From positions 1 to 38,001 of IMG/VR virus record IMGVR_UViG_3300030098_001118: DNA of 38,001 nt; one strand, 5' to 3'. This DNA is from a virus. The notes beneath the pieces were generated by a model. It worked only from the letters and a program-made list of their open reading frames with translations. It had not been told where the DNA came from and did not search any database. The position numbers and the translations under genes were made by a program. This document shows, piece by piece, positions 1-38,001 of this stretch (its first letter is position 1; each line of letters opens with the position of its first letter).

Positions 1-99
1 CCTACCCTATTGCTAACATTATTTAACTGCCTGCGTCTAAACAGATTAGGATACCCCAAATGTCGTAGCTCAGTAATCGTAGTCAAACCATGATTGTTA
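1..99. repeat. Circular-assembly overlap, copy 1
   Basis: Bases 1-99 are identical to 37903-38001, so the true unit is 37,902 bp. The join preserves the reading frame of the terminase nuclease gene (672 nt across the junction). An exact overlap of this size is what a circular or circularly permuted phage genome gives after assembly; it is probably not a biological terminal repeat. Confidence 0.95.
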
Positions 100-326
100 G
101 ACTCAACACAACACAAAGCGTCTCGATACCACAAACCTACTGCCAAAACCTCTTCCGCAAGCAAATCAGGTGCAATATGGCCATGCCAAATAGCTACTTG
201 CTCGCCAGTTCCAACACAAAGCACTTGAATACACGAATAATCACCATGTTTTAACCCCTCTGCCGTATCTACTCCCATAACATAAGCACTCATAGGGTCA
301 GGATGTTCCCAAACTTCCAAACTCAT
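1..326 (-). CDS. terL: Large terminase, nuclease half (5' part; continues at 37902)
   Basis: N-terminal 108 residues of a 223-residue protein that crosses the window edge and continues from 37902 down to 37557. ATG at 326 overlaps the TGA of the PAPS-reductase-like gene in an ATGA junction. It shows the RNase H-like terminase nuclease start: WEHPDP linker, then VMGVDTAEGL with first acidic residue D20, and VESNN with E75. This domain cuts the concatemer during packaging. In most tailed phages it is fused behind the ATPase domain; here it is a separate gene one cistron away. Codons 1-10 look like the usual inter-domain linker, so the split falls exactly at the domain boundary. The identity is firm; how the halves work together is unknown. 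Confidence 0.9.
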   Translation of the reverse strand, partial: MSLEVWEHPDPMSAYVMGVDTAEGLKHGDYSCIQVLCVGTGEQVAIWHGHIAPDLLAEEVLAVGLWYRDALCCVESNNHGLTTITELRHLGYPNLFRRRQLNNVSNRV

Positions 327-330
327 ACTC
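323..330. repeat. 8-bp direct repeat flanking the inserted gene, distal copy
   Basis: TCATACTC on the plus strand (GAGTATGA on the coding strand). It is identical to 1156-1163 and includes the ATGA stop/start junction between the PAPS-reductase-like gene and the terminase nuclease gene. Either an insertion footprint or convergent coupling junctions. Confidence 0.6.
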
Positions 331-1159
331 CGCACATCCCTTCACACTCATTATCAAACAAAGACGGCTGTTTAGTTCGCATTCTAGAAGCAAAATCAAC
401 TGTTTCTAAAGGCTCACAGCTAGGATGTAAAAAAACTTTACCATCAAATTTAGTTTCAAGCTTAACTTGCATCTTTTTTTCAAAATCTACAGCTTCCATA
501 AACTCATCGTAATGATTTTCTTTCAAATTAAGCCATTCACTGTTGTCATGATAAGGACATCCAATACACGCACTACGTTTAGGCAACTCGTACCCTTTAT
601 CAGCCATCCAATTCAAACAATCTTGGCGAGACATACCTAAATCAAGCAAAGGAAACTTAGCAAAAATATAGGGTTTATGATTATCTTTAGCCCTTTGCAC
701 CTCATCAGTACTAATTCCCATTAACTGATGCACTATTCCGTACTTCCTAGCGTACCTTTGTTTATATTTCAAACCCATAATTTCTCGTATTCTACGCTCT
801 ACAGGCAAAATTTTATACTCGCTAGTACATTGCCTACGCATAATACTTCTTTTCCCATCAACATCTAACGTATGAAACGGTATTGCAGCAAAACGATCAT
901 TTTTCAAAGCATCCTCTTTGATACTTCCAGTAGTATTTTTGCTATACGATTGAACTCTATGAAATTGTATACCTGACTTTTTAATTAAAGGTTTTAATTT
1001 TTCTAGATAGCTATACACATGCTTTGGTTCCCACCCAGTATCAGAAAAAATACAATGTTCTATAGGCTTTATTTCCCCATGAATAGCCATTAACAAAACA
1101 GCACTACTCTGAACACCAGCTCCTAAAGAAAGAATACGAATAACTCGATTTTCATTCAT
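323..1159 (-). CDS. PAPS-reductase/ATP-pyrophosphatase-like protein inserted in terL
   Basis: 278 residues of the phage PAPS-reductase-like (adenine nucleotide alpha-hydrolase) family. Residues 11-19 (SLGAGVQSS) form the PP-loop; FSDTGWEPK follows at 38-46; CTSEYKI at 111-117 carries the conserved Cys-Thr; CIGC at 198-201 is a paired-cysteine motif. Relatives include sulfate-assimilation enzymes, DndC-type DNA phosphorothioation proteins and tRNA thiolases, so the chemistry is probably adenylation or sulfur transfer. The substrate cannot be told from sequence. ATG at 1159 overlaps the TGA of the terminase ATPase gene, and the gene ends in an ATGA overlap with the nuclease gene, so translation of all three is probably coupled. 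No other sulfur-pathway gene is seen in the genome. Confidence 0.85.
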   Translation of the reverse strand: MNENRVIRILSLGAGVQSSAVLLMAIHGEIKPIEHCIFSDTGWEPKHVYSYLEKLKPLIKKSGIQFHRVQSYSKNTTGSIKEDALKNDRFAAIPFHTLDVDGKRSIMRRQCTSEYKILPVERRIREIMGLKYKQRYARKYGIVHQLMGISTDEVQRAKDNHKPYIFAKFPLLDLGMSRQDCLNWMADKGYELPKRSACIGCPYHDNSEWLNLKENHYDEFMEAVDFEKKMQVKLETKFDGKVFLHPSCEPLETVDFASRMRTKQPSLFDNECEGMCGV

Positions 1160-1163
1160 ACTC
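1156..1163. repeat. 8-bp direct repeat flanking the inserted gene, proximal copy
   Basis: TCATACTC, exact match of 323-330, containing the ATPase-gene TGA and the PAPS-like ATG. Removing one copy plus the intervening 833 bp would leave the ATPase gene joined to the nuclease gene by a single ATGA overlap. Confidence 0.6.
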
Positions 1164-2043
1164 TAAATTCCACATGTTTATTGTTACGCCACATATAACC
1201 TTCCTCACCATAAGTAGTGTTTCTAGCCATTTCCTCTAATATGGCTAAATCAAACACAGGATTACCTGACTTAACAAACGCTTCTTCAGGTGTCGTAGGA
1301 TATTCTTGTGCTAGTTGCCAAGGCAACATGCTTTCTATCTTTTCTTGATACCAAGAGTCTCCCCGATCTTCAGTCGCCGACCAAGGGAAAAACATAGGCG
1401 CAAACTTGTTTGCACCAGTAGAAGCACCAACCCACAACTGATGATAAAAATTCCCGCTACCATTCGCAGTGGACAAACCAATAATGCGACCACCAATATC
1501 AGCAACAGGTTCAATAGAGGCCCAAGCTTCTTCAGGATTAGGGAGAAAAGCCCATTCATCCACCACAATAAGCGATGCTGACTCACCACGAGCTGGGTCA
1601 GACGCAGATGGCATTGATGTAATAAGCGAGCCATTATCAAACCCCATTCTTTGTTGATGTTCCATTAAGGACTTAGGTCCACGTTCAAGCATCCAATCAG
1701 GTAAATGCTTAAAACCATATTTCGTCTTTCTTAACAATAGCACAGCTTCACGTTCAGTTCTAGACAAATCAATGATGTTCTGATCTGCATGAAAAAACGC
1801 CAACCAGAACTGATGAGCAGCTACAAGCGTAGACCACCCAATCTGCCTGGCTTTCAACGTTAACGAATACCTGTGTTCTTGCCAATGCTCCAACGCTTCA
1901 GCTTGAGCTGAACGCAAATCAAACAAAATACGGCCATGAGCAGGATGTGCTATATTCCAATAGTTTTCAAGAAAGTAACGTTCATTCTTACAACACTTTC
2001 TCCACTCTGCTTCTTTCTTCAATTCTGATAGAGTGTATGACAT
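1156..2043 (-). CDS. terL: Large terminase, ATPase half
   Basis: 295 residues covering only the packaging-motor ATPase. The Walker A region is KARQIGWST (64-72), the variant with Lys at the front of the loop. Walker B is SLIVVDEWAF with DE at 162-163, and GLSTANGSG (189-197) is the coupling motif. The protein stops at residue 295 after the linker (EGYMWRNN), where a normal terminase runs on into WE-P-DP and the nuclease. The only ATG in range is at 2043; an in-frame TGA lies just upstream. Its CAT/ATG overlaps the ATG of the divergent oxygenase gene. Identity is high confidence; lack of an attached nuclease is the odd feature. Confidence 0.93.
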   Translation of the reverse strand: MSYTLSELKKEAEWRKCCKNERYFLENYWNIAHPAHGRILFDLRSAQAEALEHWQEHRYSLTLKARQIGWSTLVAAHQFWLAFFHADQNIIDLSRTEREAVLLLRKTKYGFKHLPDWMLERGPKSLMEHQQRMGFDNGSLITSMPSASDPARGESASLIVVDEWAFLPNPEEAWASIEPVADIGGRIIGLSTANGSGNFYHQLWVGASTGANKFAPMFFPWSATEDRGDSWYQEKIESMLPWQLAQEYPTTPEEAFVKSGNPVFDLAILEEMARNTTYGEEGYMWRNNKHVEFRV

Positions 2044-2653
2044 GTTAAATAATCATTTCTGGTATATACCAAACGCTTTAGATACAAACGAGATAGAACA
2101 CATTCGATTAGAAGGTGACTCTCTCATTAAACTTTATTCGTCCCAAGCATACCATCACGGTGACGCTTATAGGTCATCAAAGATAACTTGGATTGACGAT
2201 ACTTTAACAAACGAATGTATAGCCAACATAATTGAAGACTCCAACGTTCAAGCAGGCTGGTTATTTTCCTTAATACGGCCCGAAAAAACCCAATATACGG
2301 TATACAAGAAAGGAGACGAATACGATTGGCACGTAGACGGTTTCCAAGACAGGTATGCAGCAAAGCAACTCGTTTCAGAACCTTTAACACCAATGCCACT
2401 AGACAAGACCACAAACCCGCTGTTAGCAGGTCTCGTAAGAAAATTATCTGTAAGTGTAAACCTGAGTTCCCCAGACGATTACGAAGGCGGAACCTTAGAG
2501 TTACGTTTCCAAAATCAACTACACGCATTTGAGTCACCACCACAAGGTTCAGCAATAGTATTCCCTAGCTTCATAGAACACAGAGTACGCCCAGTAATCA
2601 AAGGCACACGCAAATCCGCAGTAATGTGGTACAACGGACCGCCCATCTCCTAA
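2042..2653 (+). CDS. 2OG-Fe(II) oxygenase, antisense within the late arm
   Basis: 203 residues from the ATG at 2042; a GTG nine bases upstream is an alternative. The double-stranded beta-helix oxygenase motifs are present: WHVDGF gives the His-x-Asp iron ligands, HRVRPV the distal His, and KGTRKSAVMW the 2-oxoglutarate Arg region. It is closest to prolyl-hydroxylase/PiuC-type oxygenases. Such phage enzymes may hydroxylate a protein or nucleic acid; the target is unknown. It is the only plus-strand gene among late genes: its start codon overlaps the terL start (CATG) and its stop overlaps the stop of the gene at 2650-2913. No clear ribosome site is visible. It looks like cargo inserted in reverse. 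Confidence 0.85.
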   Translation: MLNNHFWYIPNALDTNEIEHIRLEGDSLIKLYSSQAYHHGDAYRSSKITWIDDTLTNECIANIIEDSNVQAGWLFSLIRPEKTQYTVYKKGDEYDWHVDGFQDRYAAKQLVSEPLTPMPLDKTTNPLLAGLVRKLSVSVNLSSPDDYEGGTLELRFQNQLHAFESPPQGSAIVFPSFIEHRVRPVIKGTRKSAVMWYNGPPIS

Positions 2654-3930: not shown

Positions 3931-4034
3931 TATTGACAACTTTCACATATCTCAGGGTTTTCCAACCCACATTCCAATACTTCATCATCATTATCACCTA
4001 TAGAGTCCCAATCGTCAACAAAAAAATCAGACAT
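3930..4034 (-). CDS. 34-residue acidic mini-protein with CxxC
   Basis: A short gene fitted exactly between terS and the first basic gene. Its ATG (4034-4032) overlaps the last codons and stop of terS, and its TAA overlaps the next ATG as TAATG. The product is strongly acidic (DDWDS, DNDDE) with three Cys, two as CESC near the C-terminus. Perfect nesting in a translationally coupled chain supports coding. It contrasts in charge with its four basic neighbours, so pairing with one of them is conceivable (inference). Family unknown. Confidence 0.6.
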   Translation of the reverse strand: MSDFFVDDWDSIGDNDDEVLECGLENPEICESCQ

Positions 4035-4470
4035 CCAACCCCTCCATCAACGACTCCAACTCAGCATGCAACTCAGAATCAGACAAACCAGAAACCTCAC
4101 GGTCATCATCCAACACCAAACGGCGCTTAGGAGTAAACTTCTCAATGTATTGCAAATACAACGAAGCAGCCTTAACATCACCAGTCACAGCAGCAGCGTG
4201 CAACGCATCTATTACGCTCTGTGTCCTTTCTGGGTGGACATTTAACTCAGCAGCCCTACGGTCCCACTCTCGAATAAATCTAGAGTCATTTTTCCACCGC
4301 CGAACAGTACGCTCATTAACATCATTTTGTATAGCCCACTCACGAGTAGTAGCAGGCTCACGACCTTCCGACAACAACCAATCCAGATACGCTTTCCACT
4401 TATCTGGCATGACTTGTTCCCCTGTCTCAGGGTCTGTCTTCCAACCTTTGCCTCCACCGTTTTGTGGCAT
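4027..4470 (-). CDS. terS: Small terminase subunit
   Basis: 147 residues. A helix-turn-helix (TTREWAIQNDVNERTVRRW, ~40-59) recognises DNA, and the oligomerisation part contains VIDALHAAAVTGDVKAASLY and LQYIEKFTPKRR, the A-x-x-G-D-x-K-A-A pattern of small terminase subunits. It is the first gene of the leftward late arm, in the usual position ahead of terL although seven small genes and an antisense gene separate the two. GGAGG lies 8 bases before the ATG, overlapping the TATAG of the upstream TGGGACA element. Confidence 0.88.
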   Translation of the reverse strand: MPQNGGGKGWKTDPETGEQVMPDKWKAYLDWLLSEGREPATTREWAIQNDVNERTVRRWKNDSRFIREWDRRAAELNVHPERTQSVIDALHAAAVTGDVKAASLYLQYIEKFTPKRRLVLDDDREVSGLSDSELHAELESLMEGLDV

Positions 4471-19582: not shown

Positions 19583-20349
19583 TACGAGAACAACATCTTC
19601 CAAGTCTGCGGGCCTACTATTGAGTCAACAATTAAGAAATCCCTGTACCTATGTTGGAAAGCTCTAACACCTCTAGCGGTTTTAGCTCCAAATATTCCGT
19701 CTACAGGACCAGGGTCGTACCCAAGTTCCTTCAAACGCTGTTGAACGGCTCGTACAGCCTCTCCACGGCTCCTACGCCTCTTAGATAATGGTTTCTTTAC
19801 TAAAGTCGCTCTAAGGCGATCTAAATGCGCTTTAACGCCATCCCATTCCTGACGAGAAATGTTTTTATCTGACGTAGGCATACCAGCTTGAAGCCAGTTA
19901 TACAAAAAAGAGCCAGGACAAGCAGTAGATGCAAGATCACGATGCCCTTTGACCCACAACTTAAAGCTGTAACGCTTTTGAATCTCTCCAACTAGCCATC
20001 GAATAGACTCTAATGTTTTTTCAGGAACTACTTCATCGCCGTTCCCTGTATAACAAATAGATTCTGTTCTAGTGTTCCAAGGTCGTGTAGCAGCAGATAC
20101 TATACCTGCTCCACGGCCTTCATATATAACACCTTGTTCGTCTACTAGCCAGTTGTACGCTATTGCGTTATATCCCAGCCTGACGACATGGTGCTTTTCA
20201 AAAGCTTGCACAGCATTAATGCCTTTAGGGCCATTCTTCACCCCTGAATGATGCAAAGCTATACCTTTAACTTTTTTCTTATTCAACCAAGATGGGCTGT
20301 TCCTAAAAGGGCGAGCGTTCCATCCTGCTCTGCTAATTATTGTTCTCAT
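19582..20349 (-). CDS. Endolysin: N-acetylmuramoyl-L-alanine amidase with PG-binding domain
   Basis: 255 residues. Amidase_2/PGRP domain (~1-157): IALHHSG carries the first zinc His (33/34), IAYNWLVD the Tyr, and KGHRDLASTACPG the second His (136) and Cys144. A C-terminal peptidoglycan-binding type 1 domain (~195-255) has GEAVRAVQQRLKELGYDPGP and FGAKTARGVRAFQ. Cuts the amide link between muramic acid and the stem peptide. Overlaps the large ejection-type gene by 4 bases. Confidence 0.95.
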   Translation of the reverse strand: MRTIISRAGWNARPFRNSPSWLNKKKVKGIALHHSGVKNGPKGINAVQAFEKHHVVRLGYNAIAYNWLVDEQGVIYEGRGAGIVSAATRPWNTRTESICYTGNGDEVVPEKTLESIRWLVGEIQKRYSFKLWVKGHRDLASTACPGSFLYNWLQAGMPTSDKNISRQEWDGVKAHLDRLRATLVKKPLSKRRRSRGEAVRAVQQRLKELGYDPGPVDGIFGAKTARGVRAFQHRYRDFLIVDSIVGPQTWKMLFS

Positions 20350-23300
20350 CGTTGTCTCAATTCTATATCAATGATGTCTTGTAACGCTTTCTGCGCTTCT
20401 CTTTGCCTACGAATAAACTCACTACGTTTACTAGCAGGTGTATTAATCCTTAAGCCAGTACCCAGAAATGTGTTCATCCAAGTAGTCACAACAGCATCTT
20501 GTTTCGGCCCTTCATTAGGGACTAATCTCCTAAGCCTTCCTATCAAAGGAAGGAATTGGTCTACGCTGTAGATGTCTTTATCTGTCATAACAATGTCTCC
20601 ACCTTTTGACTTTTTAGCCAAACCAGTTAATAAGAGAGCTTCTTTAATTACAGGAGCATTAGCCCAAATAGGGGCTTGTTGATATCTGTCGCTAAACGGA
20701 ATACCACCAAATACCTGTTTACCTAACATTAGTTCAATCGGTAGCTTTACAGGGGGCAAAGCAGACTCTAACCCGATTCTACCTAACCCTTGGATTCCGC
20801 CTTTAACGTCATAAATGCTTTCCATATCTTTCGTTATCTTTTGCATGTCTCTGAAAGGCAAATCAGGCATGACATAGACTCTGTTACCTTGATGAGTAAA
20901 CGGTAAGCGTATACCCATGTTCTCACCAAAGTAATGTGGAACCATGTTCTCCATAGGTGAAGTCAATTCAAGTTCTTCTTTGACTTGTTGCAACCTAGCC
21001 CAAGCTTTAGGGTTCTTACCTATTGATTCAACTAAGATAGGTAATATGTTGCGTTGCCATGTCCAGAAAGGAATAACCTTTTTGACTTTACGCTCAAATG
21101 CTGACAAATCTCCATAATCAAAATGGTATTTAGTTACGGCAGCAACAGCATCCTCTAACGTGTCTCCCGCCATCATGTTGTTGTGCGCTAACGCACCACG
21201 CAACATAAATTCAGAATCAGAGTTTCTAGCACGAACCCAGTTCATAGGTTTCCAATCAGCTCTCCAAGGCTTCATAGAACCTTGTCGCCAAGCGCTACCT
21301 CGAACAGCTCCCAACTGGTCTAACGTAGTTTGTATTTCTTGAGTTACCTGACCTTGACCAGCAACACCAGTTTCATACCATTCTCTAAATATCCTTAACT
21401 CTTCCAAGTCAACATTCTGAGGCCCACCCATACGGCGTATCGGGCCTTTAAGCTGAATAGTGTTACCTTCCTCTATTAAGAGCCTTAAACCACGCAAAAC
21501 GTTTCCGTTACCTTTAGCATTAGCTATTTTCCGTATTTCTCTAACTCGTGCATGTTGATACATTGGCACTTCGTTAATTTGGTTATTAATCCACATACCG
21601 CCTAACTGGTTTCGCATAAAGAAACCAGGACTAGTAACAGCTTGGGCTTTCCAATAGTTCAAGAATGTGTCATAACCTTTCCAGAAAGAACTAAGTGCAT
21701 CTGGGTCTTGTATCTTACCTAAAGCAGCCATAGCGTTCGCTAACAGCTCAACTGTATCATCGTCAAATTCTCCAACAAATGCTTTCCCCTCAAACGCTCG
21801 TATAGCACGAGCGCTTTTGAGGTTTCTTGTGTTTCCTAACGGACCTCTTGATGATATAGGGGTTAGTTTAAGAAGGAAATCATTCAAAGCCCCACCATAC
21901 GCATCAAATAAGGTATTTTGTGACCTAGCCTTACTTAACTCCTTGATAGCTTCTTCTTGATCGGTAATATAAGCCATCCTCGTTGATAGTTGTTTCTCTG
22001 TTTTGCCCATTTGAATTTCAGCTTGAATGCTTTCAGACAAAGCAGTATGTTTCTGGTTAATCATTGCGATTTGTTCGTTCAATTCATCAACCGTTATTTG
22101 TTTAGCATCAAACTTTGCTTTCAAGTTAGCCATCTTGCGTTTCCACTCATCTGTTATGTCTTGCAAAGCAGCAATGTTAGCTTCATTAGCATCCAGTAAT
22201 TGCTGTCGCTTACCAATAAGCTTTGTTAACATTTCTTGAGAAGGACCATCAAGGTCATTAATTCCTGTCGTGTTTTTAATCAACTGTTCTATTTCCCTAA
22301 TCTGGTCATCAATAGCAGTTATCCCAGAAACGTCTCGTATTAATACAATACCTTCTTCAATGTTTTTAATAGCAGCAAGTGAACCGCTATACAAACGGCC
22401 TTCACCTAATTGTTTTTGCAATTTCCGAAGCTCAGAAACTTGCTCAACCCAATCATCTATAGTGCGTACATCATCCAATATTTGTTTAGCAGTATCTGGG
22501 TCTTTCTTCGCTGCGACTCTTGCAGCGGTCTTCATACGCTTAGTTAAATTTTTCAATTCCCTTTGTACAGGAGTTACAAAGTTAACCCTAGATATTTTGC
22601 GACCATTTCTCGTAATCTTATACGCAGTGTCTTTCACTACCTCATCAGATAATTGCTTAAATAAATGAGCTGTTAATACACCTGGCTCCTGCAAGGTATT
22701 GTCCATCCAGTTTAAGTTCAATGCTTCTACACTTGACTTTCCTGCAACAATCGCTTCGTCCAACTCATCTAACATGCTCTTAAATTGAGCTTTTGTAGCT
22801 GACTGGCCATCGATAGCGTTTAACACATCTACGATAGCTTGGCGTAATGTGGTCAAACTATTAACAGTTTCAGCAATGTCATTAATCGCTAACCCAGCTT
22901 GTTCAGAATTTTTCAAATACTGTGCATGGTCTACCAAAGAACTTATGAACAAACGATCACCAGCGCCAGGTTTAGCGGAAGGAGGCCTAAGCAACTCAAA
23001 CACATCCAAACTCATTTTGTACTCATCAGGCATTTTTGTCGCATTAGGGTCAAGCAAGACATTCATAAAGGAACGAATCTCGTCTATTTGACGTTGAGCT
23101 TCGGCAACTTCCGCATTGAGGCGATTAAAGTTCTCAGCTTCTTGTTTAGCCATAGCGCTAACACCGTCAGGATTTTTAGCTACAGCTTCCTCAAATTCCG
23201 CTAATCTTGCTGCATACCTCTCAAGAATATCTTGCTCTCTAGCTACTCTCGCTGTTAGTTGATCTATTTTCTTTTTGCCAGAACCAAGTAATCGTTCCAT

Positions 23301-25586
23301 ACGATTATTCAAAGTGTTAGCCCTAAATCCAAAGAAAGGAACTTGTTTACCTTTTGACATTGCTTTCGCTACTTGTAGACGGCCAGGGATATTAACAGTA
23401 ACTCCAGCATTATCTAAAGTAGCTAAGAACATGCGCTCACGCAACAAAGCAGACGATTGGTTAATGTATTTCTGAACAGCTTTCTGAACATCATCCCCAT
23501 CTTCTACACGAACAAATATATTTTTGTAATCATCGCCCAACTGCTGTTTACCTATATCATCCATTTGCTGGCGGATAGAACCACCTGTGCCAACGTCTTC
23601 CAAACGTTGCCCCAAGTATCTATTAGTTATACGACTGCCCCTATATCCAACAGAATCAGCGTATTCAAACACAACACCAGTGGGTAGATTAAGTAATTCT
23701 TCAAACACCTCATCCATAGGTCGAGCTGTGCCAAATTCAGATTTCAAATCAACGTTATTCTTACGAGCAGCTTTAATTATCATGTCATCAGTAATAGCTT
23801 CCTCAAATGGTACAAGACCAGCTTGAACCGCTGGTCTACCTTCAGCTGCTTTACGCAATTTTCTGATTCTACTAGTAGGCGCATACATTCTAATTTTACT
23901 CATTTGCCCTACAAGGCCAGACGAGTTAGACATACCCAAAGCCTGATTAATCGTAAGTAAATCCTTCTTAGGCGTAACTCCTGCAACAATATCTTCAGCA
24001 TCAACCTCGTTAAGATAACGAGGAACATAAAACTCGTCTTTGAAATCAATCAAATCTACTTTAACACCATAAGGTTCTAACTGTTTCTGTAATCGCTTCC
24101 CAGCGTTTTCCCAAAAATCTTGCGCTGCTTTATGCAACGCACGAGCCTCTGGAGTGTTACCCATTGCGTCAACTACTTTAGGGTTAGCAGCAAACTCTAA
24201 CCCGCTTGCATTATCCAACTGCGGTCCCAAAGCAGGAACAGAAACCTCAAAAGGTTCCTCCGCATAGTTGTATATCAACTTGTTGAAATCTATACCTAAC
24301 TCATCAGCTTGTACACGCAAATCTTTTAAGTTCTCCAATGTGTAATGTTGCCATTTGATAACTTCAGAGTTAGCTGTTGATGCACCCTTATACGCAACAC
24401 GCAAATAATCATAAGCATTTAACGCATCTTGATTCCCCTTAGACATTTCCTTACCCAAGTTACGAACAGCTTGATTATAGTCCCCCTGAGTTCCCATCAT
24501 CTTACTCATCGTCTGACCAAATTTCGTAGCAGCTGTAGCCCCAAACGCTGCACCAAACAAACCAGCAGAAACCTTAACAAAGTTAGCAGAACCAGGAATA
24601 TAAAATTTAGTTTGCACAGGCATACGCATAGCCTGACGAGCAGGCCTACTAAACGCAGTAGCCTTAGCAGCTTTATTTGCACGAATATTAGCAATCTTCG
24701 TTACAGCTTTATTTATGTTACCTGTTTTAGAGAAATCATAAGAACGTTCACCGTTCTTTAACCAAGGATTATTCTTACCTTTCATAAACTCAGGCAAGTT
24801 AGCTTCAGGTAATTGCTTCACACGCCTACCATCAAGATACCTGCCAATATTACCTGAACGATCAAGCTTGCGAAGAGGGCGTTCAATAATGCTTCTACTA
24901 ATACGACCAGTACCAGGCAAAGTAAACCCAATACCCACACGCATACCCACTTCTTTCAACGCATCATCACCAGCAGAAAGAACAGACCCTTTAGAAAGAA
25001 CACGACCTTGCGCTTTCAACAAATCATCTGCCTTAGTAACGTTCCCCGCCGCTCTGTATATCTTAGATGCTTCACCTAAAGCATCAGCGACACGTTTAGG
25101 GTTAGTGTAACGAGCAGCGATAGCGCCACCAGTCAAATATGTCAAAGGGTCCAACGCAATGTCTAAACCTAAACCAACTACGAAATCAAGTGGGCCAGGC
25201 AGATCAACTCCCCAATCACGCAATACCTCACCCATCATCATGTTGTCACCAACCTGATTCCACCAATCAGAAGCACTGAACCCTTCACCAGATAGCAAGT
25301 CACCAGTTTCTTTAATCGTTGAAACTATAAGGGCTCGAGGTTTATCAATAATAGATATAACGTCACCCAAAGCACCTAAGAAACCACCGCCACCTTTCTT
25401 AGGAGGAGGTGGGCTATACACATACGGTTTAATGTTGTTAGGTTCTTTATACCTGTAGACTTGAGGCTTAGGAGCCTCAATGCCTAACCCCTTAAGTATT
25501 TCTTCACGAGTTTTAAGATTAGGTTTTTCAAATTTAGGTTGAAGCGCATTAAATGCTTTGCTTCTTGGCGTTTCAGGCAAAGCCAT
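20346..25586 (-). CDS. Giant internal virion/ejection protein
   Basis: 1746 residues, the largest gene. The Pro-rich N-terminus is followed by GLGLDIALDPLTYLTGGA, and a hydrophobic Ala/Gly-rich stretch (~330-355, GLFGAAFGATAA) could insert in membrane. Long helical, coiled-coil regions span ~767-840 and ~1089-1220. The C-terminal part (~1235 on) has GFFMRNQLGGMW, SEFMLRGALAHNNMMAG and HFDYGDLSAFERKVKKVIPF, a pattern of large ejected proteins in short-tailed actinophages and other podoviruses as I recall. It has the position and size of T7 gp16. Probably forms the DNA-ejection conduit. Confidence 0.7.
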   Translation of the reverse strand: MALPETPRSKAFNALQPKFEKPNLKTREEILKGLGIEAPKPQVYRYKEPNNIKPYVYSPPPPKKGGGGFLGALGDVISIIDKPRALIVSTIKETGDLLSGEGFSASDWWNQVGDNMMMGEVLRDWGVDLPGPLDFVVGLGLDIALDPLTYLTGGAIAARYTNPKRVADALGEASKIYRAAGNVTKADDLLKAQGRVLSKGSVLSAGDDALKEVGMRVGIGFTLPGTGRISRSIIERPLRKLDRSGNIGRYLDGRRVKQLPEANLPEFMKGKNNPWLKNGERSYDFSKTGNINKAVTKIANIRANKAAKATAFSRPARQAMRMPVQTKFYIPGSANFVKVSAGLFGAAFGATAATKFGQTMSKMMGTQGDYNQAVRNLGKEMSKGNQDALNAYDYLRVAYKGASTANSEVIKWQHYTLENLKDLRVQADELGIDFNKLIYNYAEEPFEVSVPALGPQLDNASGLEFAANPKVVDAMGNTPEARALHKAAQDFWENAGKRLQKQLEPYGVKVDLIDFKDEFYVPRYLNEVDAEDIVAGVTPKKDLLTINQALGMSNSSGLVGQMSKIRMYAPTSRIRKLRKAAEGRPAVQAGLVPFEEAITDDMIIKAARKNNVDLKSEFGTARPMDEVFEELLNLPTGVVFEYADSVGYRGSRITNRYLGQRLEDVGTGGSIRQQMDDIGKQQLGDDYKNIFVRVEDGDDVQKAVQKYINQSSALLRERMFLATLDNAGVTVNIPGRLQVAKAMSKGKQVPFFGFRANTLNNRMERLLGSGKKKIDQLTARVAREQDILERYAARLAEFEEAVAKNPDGVSAMAKQEAENFNRLNAEVAEAQRQIDEIRSFMNVLLDPNATKMPDEYKMSLDVFELLRPPSAKPGAGDRLFISSLVDHAQYLKNSEQAGLAINDIAETVNSLTTLRQAIVDVLNAIDGQSATKAQFKSMLDELDEAIVAGKSSVEALNLNWMDNTLQEPGVLTAHLFKQLSDEVVKDTAYKITRNGRKISRVNFVTPVQRELKNLTKRMKTAARVAAKKDPDTAKQILDDVRTIDDWVEQVSELRKLQKQLGEGRLYSGSLAAIKNIEEGIVLIRDVSGITAIDDQIREIEQLIKNTTGINDLDGPSQEMLTKLIGKRQQLLDANEANIAALQDITDEWKRKMANLKAKFDAKQITVDELNEQIAMINQKHTALSESIQAEIQMGKTEKQLSTRMAYITDQEEAIKELSKARSQNTLFDAYGGALNDFLLKLTPISSRGPLGNTRNLKSARAIRAFEGKAFVGEFDDDTVELLANAMAALGKIQDPDALSSFWKGYDTFLNYWKAQAVTSPGFFMRNQLGGMWINNQINEVPMYQHARVREIRKIANAKGNGNVLRGLRLLIEEGNTIQLKGPIRRMGGPQNVDLEELRIFREWYETGVAGQGQVTQEIQTTLDQLGAVRGSAWRQGSMKPWRADWKPMNWVRARNSDSEFMLRGALAHNNMMAGDTLEDAVAAVTKYHFDYGDLSAFERKVKKVIPFWTWQRNILPILVESIGKNPKAWARLQQVKEELELTSPMENMVPHYFGENMGIRLPFTHQGNRVYVMPDLPFRDMQKITKDMESIYDVKGGIQGLGRIGLESALPPVKLPIELMLGKQVFGGIPFSDRYQQAPIWANAPVIKEALLLTGLAKKSKGGDIVMTDKDIYSVDQFLPLIGRLRRLVPNEGPKQDAVVTTWMNTFLGTGLRINTPASKRSEFIRRQREAQKALQDIIDIELRQR

Positions 25587-35065: not shown

Positions 35066-35090
35066 CTATAAGTTAATCACAGTGTCCCAC
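35066..35090 (-). promoter_or_regulatory. TGGGACA-N12-TATAG element before scaffold
   Basis: Minus strand GTGGGACAC...CTTATAG; 22 of 25 bases are identical to the element at 37546-37570. It starts at the portal stop and lies 35 bases before the scaffold GTG. The two closest copies in the genome. Confidence 0.65.
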
Positions 35091-36973
35091 TAAAGGGAAG
35101 GCAATTCCATACCCATTTGTCCCTGCAACTGAGCTAACAACTCAGGAGGAACCCCACCAGTAGGCGCAAACGCCCCTTGATCTGGTGGAGGAGGCATAGG
35201 AGCGCCCCCCATTGGACCTGCTGGCCCACCAGGAACTGGCGTACCATCAGGAGTAGGAGCGCCAGGCGCAGGCATAGGTTGCTGTTGAATCAAGAATTTC
35301 TCAGGATTCTTAACATTAAATCCAGATTCCAACACATGAACAGCTATAGCCATAGGGTCTATAACAGTACCAATAAGCGGAGCTACAGCATTCAACAAAG
35401 AAACAGCTTGCTGTTTCCTAATTGTTTCATTCATAGGCTGTGTAGAACCAGCTTGCACACTAAAGTCGTATTCTCCTACAATTTCATCTCTAGAATATGG
35501 AATCCACATAGTTTCTCCACCACGCAGATTCAATCGAGCTACCTGCTCACCAGTCATGAACTGTTGCATCAACTGTATAACTCGTTTAGCTACATGAGAT
35601 ATAGCAAGTTCAACAATAGCTAGTTTGTCAGAAGACCTAGCATTCTGTGCATCTGCAACAATAGATGCTTCTGTAGCTGTACGCCGTATTTCAGGCATAG
35701 CGCCACGAGCATACTCAGATATACCAGAAACAGTATTGATATCCTCAGATATTATGTTTGAATAGTTATATATCTCAGGTGACAAAGGCACTTGAGGCAT
35801 AGGCATAACTATCTCAGAAAGCGGTTTATTTTCGTCCACAACTGGTACAAGACGGCCATCTTCATCTGATTCCAACGCCTCACGACCTTCAGGCCCAAAA
35901 GACCTTTCGTGGTACAAGTACTTTCTCGCATATCGTTTCCTATCATTCATTAACTGGCTACGAGTCTTATCTAACTCTAGTTGTAAAGATTCTATAGATT
36001 CTAAATCACCCATTGGGTAGAAATGATCTGGAACTTCATAGTTCCGTAGCATTACAAAAGGTTGACCATAAGCGTATGGCATGGCTATTGGGTCTACAAG
36101 GAACTCGTCACCATCTTCTGCGTACACAGATATGGTGTTGTCCATAATGTTGTAGTATTCCCAAATCACAACACGTTCTTCAACGTATTGTGATTTCTCT
36201 TCCTCGTAACTTTCATCACCATATGTGTTATACATTGATGAAGCAGCAAGACGTTTGCGAGCTGATGCCTTGTAACGTTTATCTTCTTTAGCCATATCCA
36301 ATGGTCTAATAATTCTTTGAGCTATCCACTTAGCGTCTTCCATACAAGTAGCTTGTGGGTCTACATACACATCAAAAGGACTAATTCTTTCTACAAACGG
36401 TTGATCTTCAACAACACGCATTACAGTTTCAGGAATACTAGCAACTATGTCATCATCAGTAGGCAACTCACCAGCCATCATTGGATTCTCAGAAGCATAC
36501 ACAGCGCTTTCAACCATTGCTTGGTCGATCATACCGTCACGTTCTGTATCTGTAACGGTTTGTTCTTGCTCTACAAACTTCCAACCAACCTTTACCCAAC
36601 CATGACCAAATATTAAAAAGTCTTTAACTGCACGCCTGAACGGTGACCTAAAGTCATGGTGTTTCCACAAATAGTTAACTATTGCTTCAACAAATACAGC
36701 TTTTTCTCTGTTCTCAGGATTATTAGCTTGAACAACTACTTTAGGATAGTTAACAGCTACGGAAGGTGCTATAACGTTGATAGTTGAAAAAGCTAGATTA
36801 ACAGCTATTAAATCCTGGTTGTTTAACGTAGTAGAAGGCCAATGTTTACCTCGATACAGGTCATTAAGCCGTCTCCAAGTCTTGTCGTAATTCTCAGAAT
36901 CACGCCATTGTATACACTTGTCTACTTTTTCTTGGTATTCACTAAGAATAGTTTGACGACTTTTCTTTGGCAT
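35090..36973 (-). CDS. Portal protein
   Basis: 627 residues. N-terminal EYQEKVDKCIQWRDSENYDK, wing/stem segments with NLAFSTINVIAPSVAVNYPK and FRSPFRRAVKDFLIFGHGWV, RYARKYLYHERSFGPEG in the middle, and a helical C-terminal part followed by a Pro/Gly/Met-rich disordered tail (~565-627). Podovirus-type dodecameric portal by size and order. TAATG-coupled to the 85-residue gene. Confidence 0.85.
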   Translation of the reverse strand: MPKKSRQTILSEYQEKVDKCIQWRDSENYDKTWRRLNDLYRGKHWPSTTLNNQDLIAVNLAFSTINVIAPSVAVNYPKVVVQANNPENREKAVFVEAIVNYLWKHHDFRSPFRRAVKDFLIFGHGWVKVGWKFVEQEQTVTDTERDGMIDQAMVESAVYASENPMMAGELPTDDDIVASIPETVMRVVEDQPFVERISPFDVYVDPQATCMEDAKWIAQRIIRPLDMAKEDKRYKASARKRLAASSMYNTYGDESYEEEKSQYVEERVVIWEYYNIMDNTISVYAEDGDEFLVDPIAMPYAYGQPFVMLRNYEVPDHFYPMGDLESIESLQLELDKTRSQLMNDRKRYARKYLYHERSFGPEGREALESDEDGRLVPVVDENKPLSEIVMPMPQVPLSPEIYNYSNIISEDINTVSGISEYARGAMPEIRRTATEASIVADAQNARSSDKLAIVELAISHVAKRVIQLMQQFMTGEQVARLNLRGGETMWIPYSRDEIVGEYDFSVQAGSTQPMNETIRKQQAVSLLNAVAPLIGTVIDPMAIAVHVLESGFNVKNPEKFLIQQQPMPAPGAPTPDGTPVPGGPAGPMGGAPMPPPPDQGAFAPTGGVPPELLAQLQGQMGMELPSL

Positions 36974-37545: not shown

Positions 37546-37570
37546 CTATAAGATAATTAAAGTGTCCCAC
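37546..37570 (-). promoter_or_regulatory. TGGGACA-N12-TATAG element before the portal block
   Basis: Minus strand GTGGGACAC...CTTATAG, overlapping the last codons of the terminase nuclease gene and 28 bases before the ATG at 37517. Near-identical (22/25) to 35066-35090. Confidence 0.65.
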
Positions 37571-38001
37571 GAACACTATTGCGACCTATCTGAAAGGGAT
37601 TCCCTTTAGGCGTATCATCACCCAAACGAGCAAACCAATCAACAGTCCAATAATCGTCCACTTGCGGAGCATATTCTGGTTCATACGCATATTTCCTCAT
37701 TTGATTAGCCAACGCAAGAGCCATAACACGGTCATCATAAGGAGAACCAGACATACTACCCCGATCATTCCTCGTAAACGTGCGTAACTCCGCTATTGTA
37801 TTCTTGTCATTAATTTGTAACTCATAATTACGCAAAGCAGCGCTCAAATCATCAATCATTAACGGTTTAGACGTTCTAGTTGTCTTCCAACCATACTCTT
37901 GTCCTACCCTATTGCTAACATTATTTAACTGCCTGCGTCTAAACAGATTAGGATACCCCAAATGTCGTAGCTCAGTAATCGTAGTCAAACCATGATTGTT
38001 A
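37557..38001 (-). CDS. terL: Large terminase, nuclease half (3' part)
   Basis: C-terminal part of the 223-residue nuclease protein whose start is at 326. Bases above 37902 are the assembly overlap with the window start. Contains LRHLGYPNLF and GSPYDDRVMALALA, with D165/D166 as the last acidic ligands completing D20 and E75. The three-acid set and TerL-specific flanks show an intact nuclease. Ends at 37557 inside the TGGGACA element that serves the next genes. Confidence 0.9.
   Translation of the reverse strand, partial: NNHGLTTITELRHLGYPNLFRRRQLNNVSNRVGQEYGWKTTRTSKPLMIDDLSAALRNYELQINDKNTIAELRTFTRNDRGSMSGSPYDDRVMALALANQMRKYAYEPEYAPQVDDYWTVDWFARLGDDTPKGNPFQIGRNSVRGTL
37903..38001. repeat. Circular-assembly overlap, copy 2
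   Basis: Exact copy of 1-99. See the first copy for meaning; it should be trimmed to obtain the 37,902-bp circle. Confidence 0.95.

Follow-up and report, generated by a model that had tools for sequence, protein, structure and literature searches.

TerL, the large terminase subunit, is conventionally viewed as a single two-domain motor. In the virus genome analysed here (IMG/VR record IMGVR_UViG_3300030098_001118; the whole stretch of 38,001 nucleotides is called the window below) we found it divided between two genes, one for the ATPase half and one for the nuclease half, with a third gene, coding for a PP-loop protein, between them. An earlier note made from the sequence alone had proposed this arrangement, and it was borne out by the open reading frames, by profile searches and by the circularised genome, as were the ATGA overlaps joining all three genes. 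As the best explanation of the whole we propose, with good confidence, that TerL is made in the window and its relatives as two independently translated proteins which would rebuild a T4 gp17-type motor, and that the PP-loop gene is accessory cargo. Judging from the sources of its contigs, the clade is probably marine.

As assembled, the window represents a circular phage genome of 37,902 unique bp: its ends form an exact 99-bp direct repeat, and the nuclease gene therefore wraps around the contig ends. The three reading frames follow one another on the minus strand in the order ATPase, PP-loop protein, nuclease (Table 1). A gene for a 2OG-Fe(II) oxygenase (2033-2653, plus strand) starts divergently at the start codon of the ATPase gene, which it overlaps on the opposite strand, and a 1746-aa protein encoded in the structural gene block (20346-25586, minus strand) has no PHROG match. 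Another complete terminase gene, which the earlier note had named as a finding that would speak against the split, was not found in a six-frame profile search of the window, nor was any other second terminase.

Table 1. Features of the terminase locus and its surroundings in the window
Feature	Position	Strand	Evidence
TerL ATPase protein, 295 aa	1156..2043	-	Pfam Terminase_6N 7.4e-8; PHROG terL 3e-30; T4 gp17 matched by the joint profile; motifs conserved among 90 distinct relatives
PP-loop / PAPS-reductase-like protein, 278 aa, between the TerL halves, putative optional cargo	323..1159	-	PHROG_424 1.1e-45; PADLOC SspD 2.9e-21; AF2 and Foldseek; missing from most relatives
ATGA overlap, ATPase stop / PP-loop start	1156..1159	-	sequence
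ATGA overlap, PP-loop stop / nuclease start	323..326	-	sequence
TerL nuclease gene, 5' part (223 aa in total, crosses the circular ends)	1..326	-	circularised ORF
TerL nuclease gene, 3' part (last 99 bases repeat window 1-99)	37557..38001	-	circularised ORF
TerS (small subunit) candidate, 147 aa, located ~2 kb upstream of the ATPase gene	4027..4470	-	weak PHROG terS matches, best 1e-4
Portal protein, downstream of the nuclease gene, same late gene block	35090..36973	-	PHROG portal 5.7e-23

Catalytic residues are intact in both halves and, across the clade, invariant or nearly so. The ATPase half carries a Walker A motif (KARQIGWST, residues 64-72), a Walker B motif (VVDEW, at residue 160) and a coupling motif (STAN, at residue 191); all three had been claimed earlier, to which we add that the Walker A is deviant, with a Lys at its first position and a Trp in place of the classical Lys. 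It is invariant among 90 distinct ATPases of the clade, save for an exchange of S and T at one site, and presumably resembles the type found in lambda gpA; the fused relative L120 has a Phe at the position of the Trp. By these motifs, the ATPase half ranks as a P-loop ATPase of the T4 gp17-type TerL. The nuclease half matches the C-terminal regions of TerL families in PHROG, its best PHROG match being a family of unknown function, and a joint profile of ATPase and nuclease matches the T4 gp17 structures over both domains (1e-49 to 4e-48). As the earlier note had it, the acidic residues are kept: among 96 distinct relatives D20 and D165/D166 never vary and E23 hardly does, and the window has E75 as well. 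Profile matches and conserved acids together indicate an RNase H fold with its acidic triad. Since a T4 gp17-type TerL is one polypeptide and all assessable clade members have two ORFs, we class the protein as a split TerL variant and not as a standard TerL.

Relatives were collected with the ATPase (80 loci, 81-100% identical) and with the nuclease (80 loci, 71-92%), and the pooled sets gave 112 assessable distinct junctions (relatives ~71-100% identical), the window excluded. These served to look for adjacent or separated halves, as the earlier note had suggested, and not a single junction was fused. In 108 of the 112 the two genes overlap directly, 105 of them by 4 nt (RTGA in 104 cases, CTGA in one) and three by 1 nt (TAATG). 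The PP-loop gene intervenes in three further junctions (four when the window is counted), and the last one, L063, is frameshifted, with an apparent frameshift near 1710-1762 in the 5' end of the nuclease gene that reflects either an assembly error or decay. Outside the clade, at 52% identity and below, those relatives that cover both domains have their TerL in a single ORF, as in MW202803 at 52%, in L124 and L125 at 44-47% and in others at 20-30%, full-length IMG/VR loci included. Because no clade junction is fused while these more distant two-domain relatives are in one piece, the split is a derived trait that is fixed in the clade as far as sampled.

One might ask whether split and insert arose from faulty assembly or sequencing, or mark a pseudogene in decay, as the window is one metagenomic contig with the nuclease gene broken at its ends and the L063 nuclease contains an indel. 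However, the same split recurs in more than 100 distinct contig sequences, which marks it as architecture and not as an assembly fault; other contigs have the insert in the identical position, dN stays well under dS and the active sites are invariant. The independent contigs refute this explanation, and we give it practically no weight. A second possibility is that programmed -1 ribosomal frameshifting joins the two genes into one TerL and that the split is only apparent. Indeed, the frame of the nuclease is always -1 relative to that of the ATPase, with an overlap of 4 nt or 1 nt. Yet in many members the nuclease frame is closed by a stop codon no more than 3-9 nt ahead of its start (<=30 nt in most), which leaves no room for a slip and is our reason for rejecting a fusion of this kind. 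Moreover, no slippery heptamer was seen at the junctions inspected by eye, the nuclease start is an ATG or GTG in 107 of the 108 direct junctions, and a whole gene intervenes at four distinct junctions. Frameshifting is therefore, in our estimate, very unlikely.

We could also locate the break within the TerL fold. The split reads ...VEFRV | MSLEVWE..., and an alignment to the fused L120 puts the break between VQLVDGG and NFHIWE. In an AF2 model of the fused L124, a relative of only ~45% identity (mean pLDDT 73.6, linker ~60-80), it falls into the loop between strands 329-332 and 338-340. This corresponds to about residue 380 of T4 gp17, ~20 residues ahead of the first nuclease aspartate, with the numbering offset estimated from the chain alignment. 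According to this model, two short beta-strands of the interdomain linker flank the break, which sits in the turn joining them.

Two separate proteins forming one motor, as had been suggested for the window, are well supported at the level of sequence by the clade-wide split, the intact catalytic residues, the lack of another TerL in the window and the tight start/stop overlap. An ancestral one-piece T4 gp17-type TerL would have become two proteins in this clade. Ribosomes that end on the ATPase gene would restart at the overlapping RTGA (or TAATG) of the nuclease start, and such putative translational coupling should keep the two products in balanced amounts. In 80 of the 108 direct junctions a GGAG is found no more than 21 nt ahead of the nuclease start, but on its own it proves nothing, as conserved codons include it as well. 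Most likely, the two proteins rejoin on the portal, through the strands of the split linker and the interface of the domains, to form a normal motor that cuts and pumps; that they reassemble, and in which stoichiometry, we infer.

The gene between the halves behaves differently. Besides the window, L011, L016 and L019/L020 (the latter two identical) carry an insert at the junction, and every carrier has an insert-less sister (L003 and L004 for the window, L021 for L019, L010 for L016). L004 lacks the insert, its ATPase being 96% and its nuclease 98% identical to those of the window (dS ~0.2 in each half). It is also absent from L003, the ATPase of which is 99.7-100% identical while the nuclease has diverged to a dS of 1.4, a pattern that points to recombination close to or at the junction of the TerL halves. 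Among 28 related contigs searched for a PP-loop gene, some of them fragments, 25 have no copy and two (L011, L020) have the junction copy. The remaining one, contig G005 of L010, carries a different homologue (46%, positions 215-1018) away from its insert-less junction. The boundaries of the insert are exact at the RTGA, and in the window GAGTATGA is found at both of its ends as an 8-nt direct repeat. From these patterns we conclude that the PP-loop gene was inserted without a scar and occurs patchily, and that it is apparently optional and not needed for packaging. It would have been inserted precisely into the ATGA junction, and as the start/stop overlap is kept on both sides, the nuclease should still be translated. 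The enzyme itself would stay outside the motor, merely co-expressed with the late genes.

Thus the proposal that the enzyme gene belongs to a packaging operon did not stand: L004, L003 and other close relatives have the same split and no conserved enzyme gene, which is the very observation that the earlier note had named as speaking against it. That the enzyme has a part in packaging, such as the modification of DNA or of a terminase protein, and is kept in place by selection for this role could be argued from the occurrence of the insert only at the exact junction in at least three sub-lineages, with overlaps kept on both sides, and from its purifying selection (L011 versus L016: dN 0.017, dS 0.33, dN/dS ~0.05). 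However, most relatives with the same terminase, near-identical ones included, lack the gene, the L010 homologue is located elsewhere in the genome, and in other phages homologues lie away from the terminase and are present even in tailless ones such as Thermus P23-77 and Salisaeta icosahedral phage 1. A role in packaging is therefore improbable. Of the alternatives raised earlier, passive cargo fits best as far as packaging is concerned, yet the gene is under purifying selection and therefore does something for the phage.

The presence of the PP-loop gene forces three changes on the ATPase tree, the inserts are only 55-63% identical between lineages compared to ~90% for their terminase halves, and insertion is exact at the RTGA, all of which would fit a junction that serves as a recurrent landing site, entered several times instead of once with later losses or exchange. 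On the other hand, the junction copies cluster together (93/69; 91% of bootstrap trees), albeit as a weakly supported clade, and no other gene family was found in the relatives' junctions surveyed. Furthermore, synonymous divergence is saturated, and a single entry with losses fits too; dating the insert by dS was rejected for the same saturation. Repeated entry is thus possible but rather doubtful. As every carrier belongs to the closest relatives and support for this clade of inserts is weak, the association may be lineage-specific. Still more tentatively, the RTGA junction might be a tolerated, recurrent site for scarless whole-gene insertion that keeps the start/stop coupling of an essential motor, with the two-protein TerL letting the nuclease be dosed or exchanged apart from the pump, and recombination of the L003 type swapping nucleases.

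The AF2 model of the insert (pLDDT 90) points to a PP-loop (adenine nucleotide alpha-hydrolase-like) fold. Foldseek matched it, at fold level only, to LarE [4Fe-4S], CysH and other PP-loop sulfur enzymes (6VPU, 1SUR and 2OQ2; TM 0.38-0.47; ~13% identity to solved structures), and the PADLOC SspD profile matched at 2.9e-21, a model that may span a broad PP-loop group. Unlike enzymes of the CysH, LarE and SspD type, the insert reads a conserved SLGAGVQSS instead of the canonical SGGxDS of CysH; the Pfam PAPS_reduct match stays below the cut-off, and no Ssp model, and thus no SspA/B/C partner, matched any of the 10 other window ORFs scanned. Six cysteines are invariant in the insert, including those of a C-terminal ECxGMCG motif. 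Probably the protein is one of the Fe-S-dependent PP-loop enzymes that many phages carry, serving in sulfur transfer or sulfur reduction. In other phages the homologues lie near methyltransferase, HNH, SSB or ParB-like genes and not the terminase (partly read by eye), e.g. beside SSB and HNH in Geobacillus PK5.1, among small genes in HTVC034P, near C5-methyltransferase, HNH and ParB-like genes in L158 and near a C5-methyltransferase in L083 (translations of the last two read by eye). They thus sit among early or DNA-modification genes. A partnership of the insert with the C5-cytosine methyltransferase of the window found no support, as relatives without the insert also have this methyltransferase and the L020 and L011 contigs, which are partial, did not yield it. 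A scan of bacterial genomes with the insert returned only two relatives (40-44%).

The field has yet to explain how the nuclease is kept off while the motor is pumping and turned on when pumping ends, and this large clade offers a natural case of separate motor and nuclease. As separate proteins, the two can be expressed, titrated and exchanged independently, and the position of the break reveals where the interdomain linker can do without covalent continuity. Split TerLs may also be under-counted, since annotation pipelines may label the nuclease half, with an uncharacterised PHROG family as its top hit, as unknown.

The C-terminal nuclease domain of TerL has been called universal in a review (PMC7824862). 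A TerL in two ORFs has been reported for most Arthrobacter cluster AY phages, e.g. BillyTP and BlueShadow (PMC11920828, PMC12820723). The papers covered by our literature search contain no report of a marine split TerL, of the present clade or of a gene between TerL halves. Compared by description only, cluster AY and the present clade share an ATPase and a nuclease encoded by two separate consecutive genes (108 of the 112 relatives' junctions, with one gene between them in the window). They differ in that the cluster AY phages have Arthrobacter hosts, whereas our clade, for which IMG/VR contigs are the sole source, encodes a gp17-like TerL and includes members with an intervening gene. The closest annotated relative, the TerL of Caudoviricetes sp. 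ct52p938 (MW202803; 52% in the ATPase, ~50% in the nuclease), is a single 560-aa polypeptide. T4 gp17 (PDB 3CPE, 3EZK), finally, is matched by both halves in one profile and has the same order of ATPase and RNase H-type nuclease, but it is one polypeptide with a classical Walker A (GKT), whereas the TerL of the clade is divided into two polypeptides and its Walker A is deviant, beginning with Lys.
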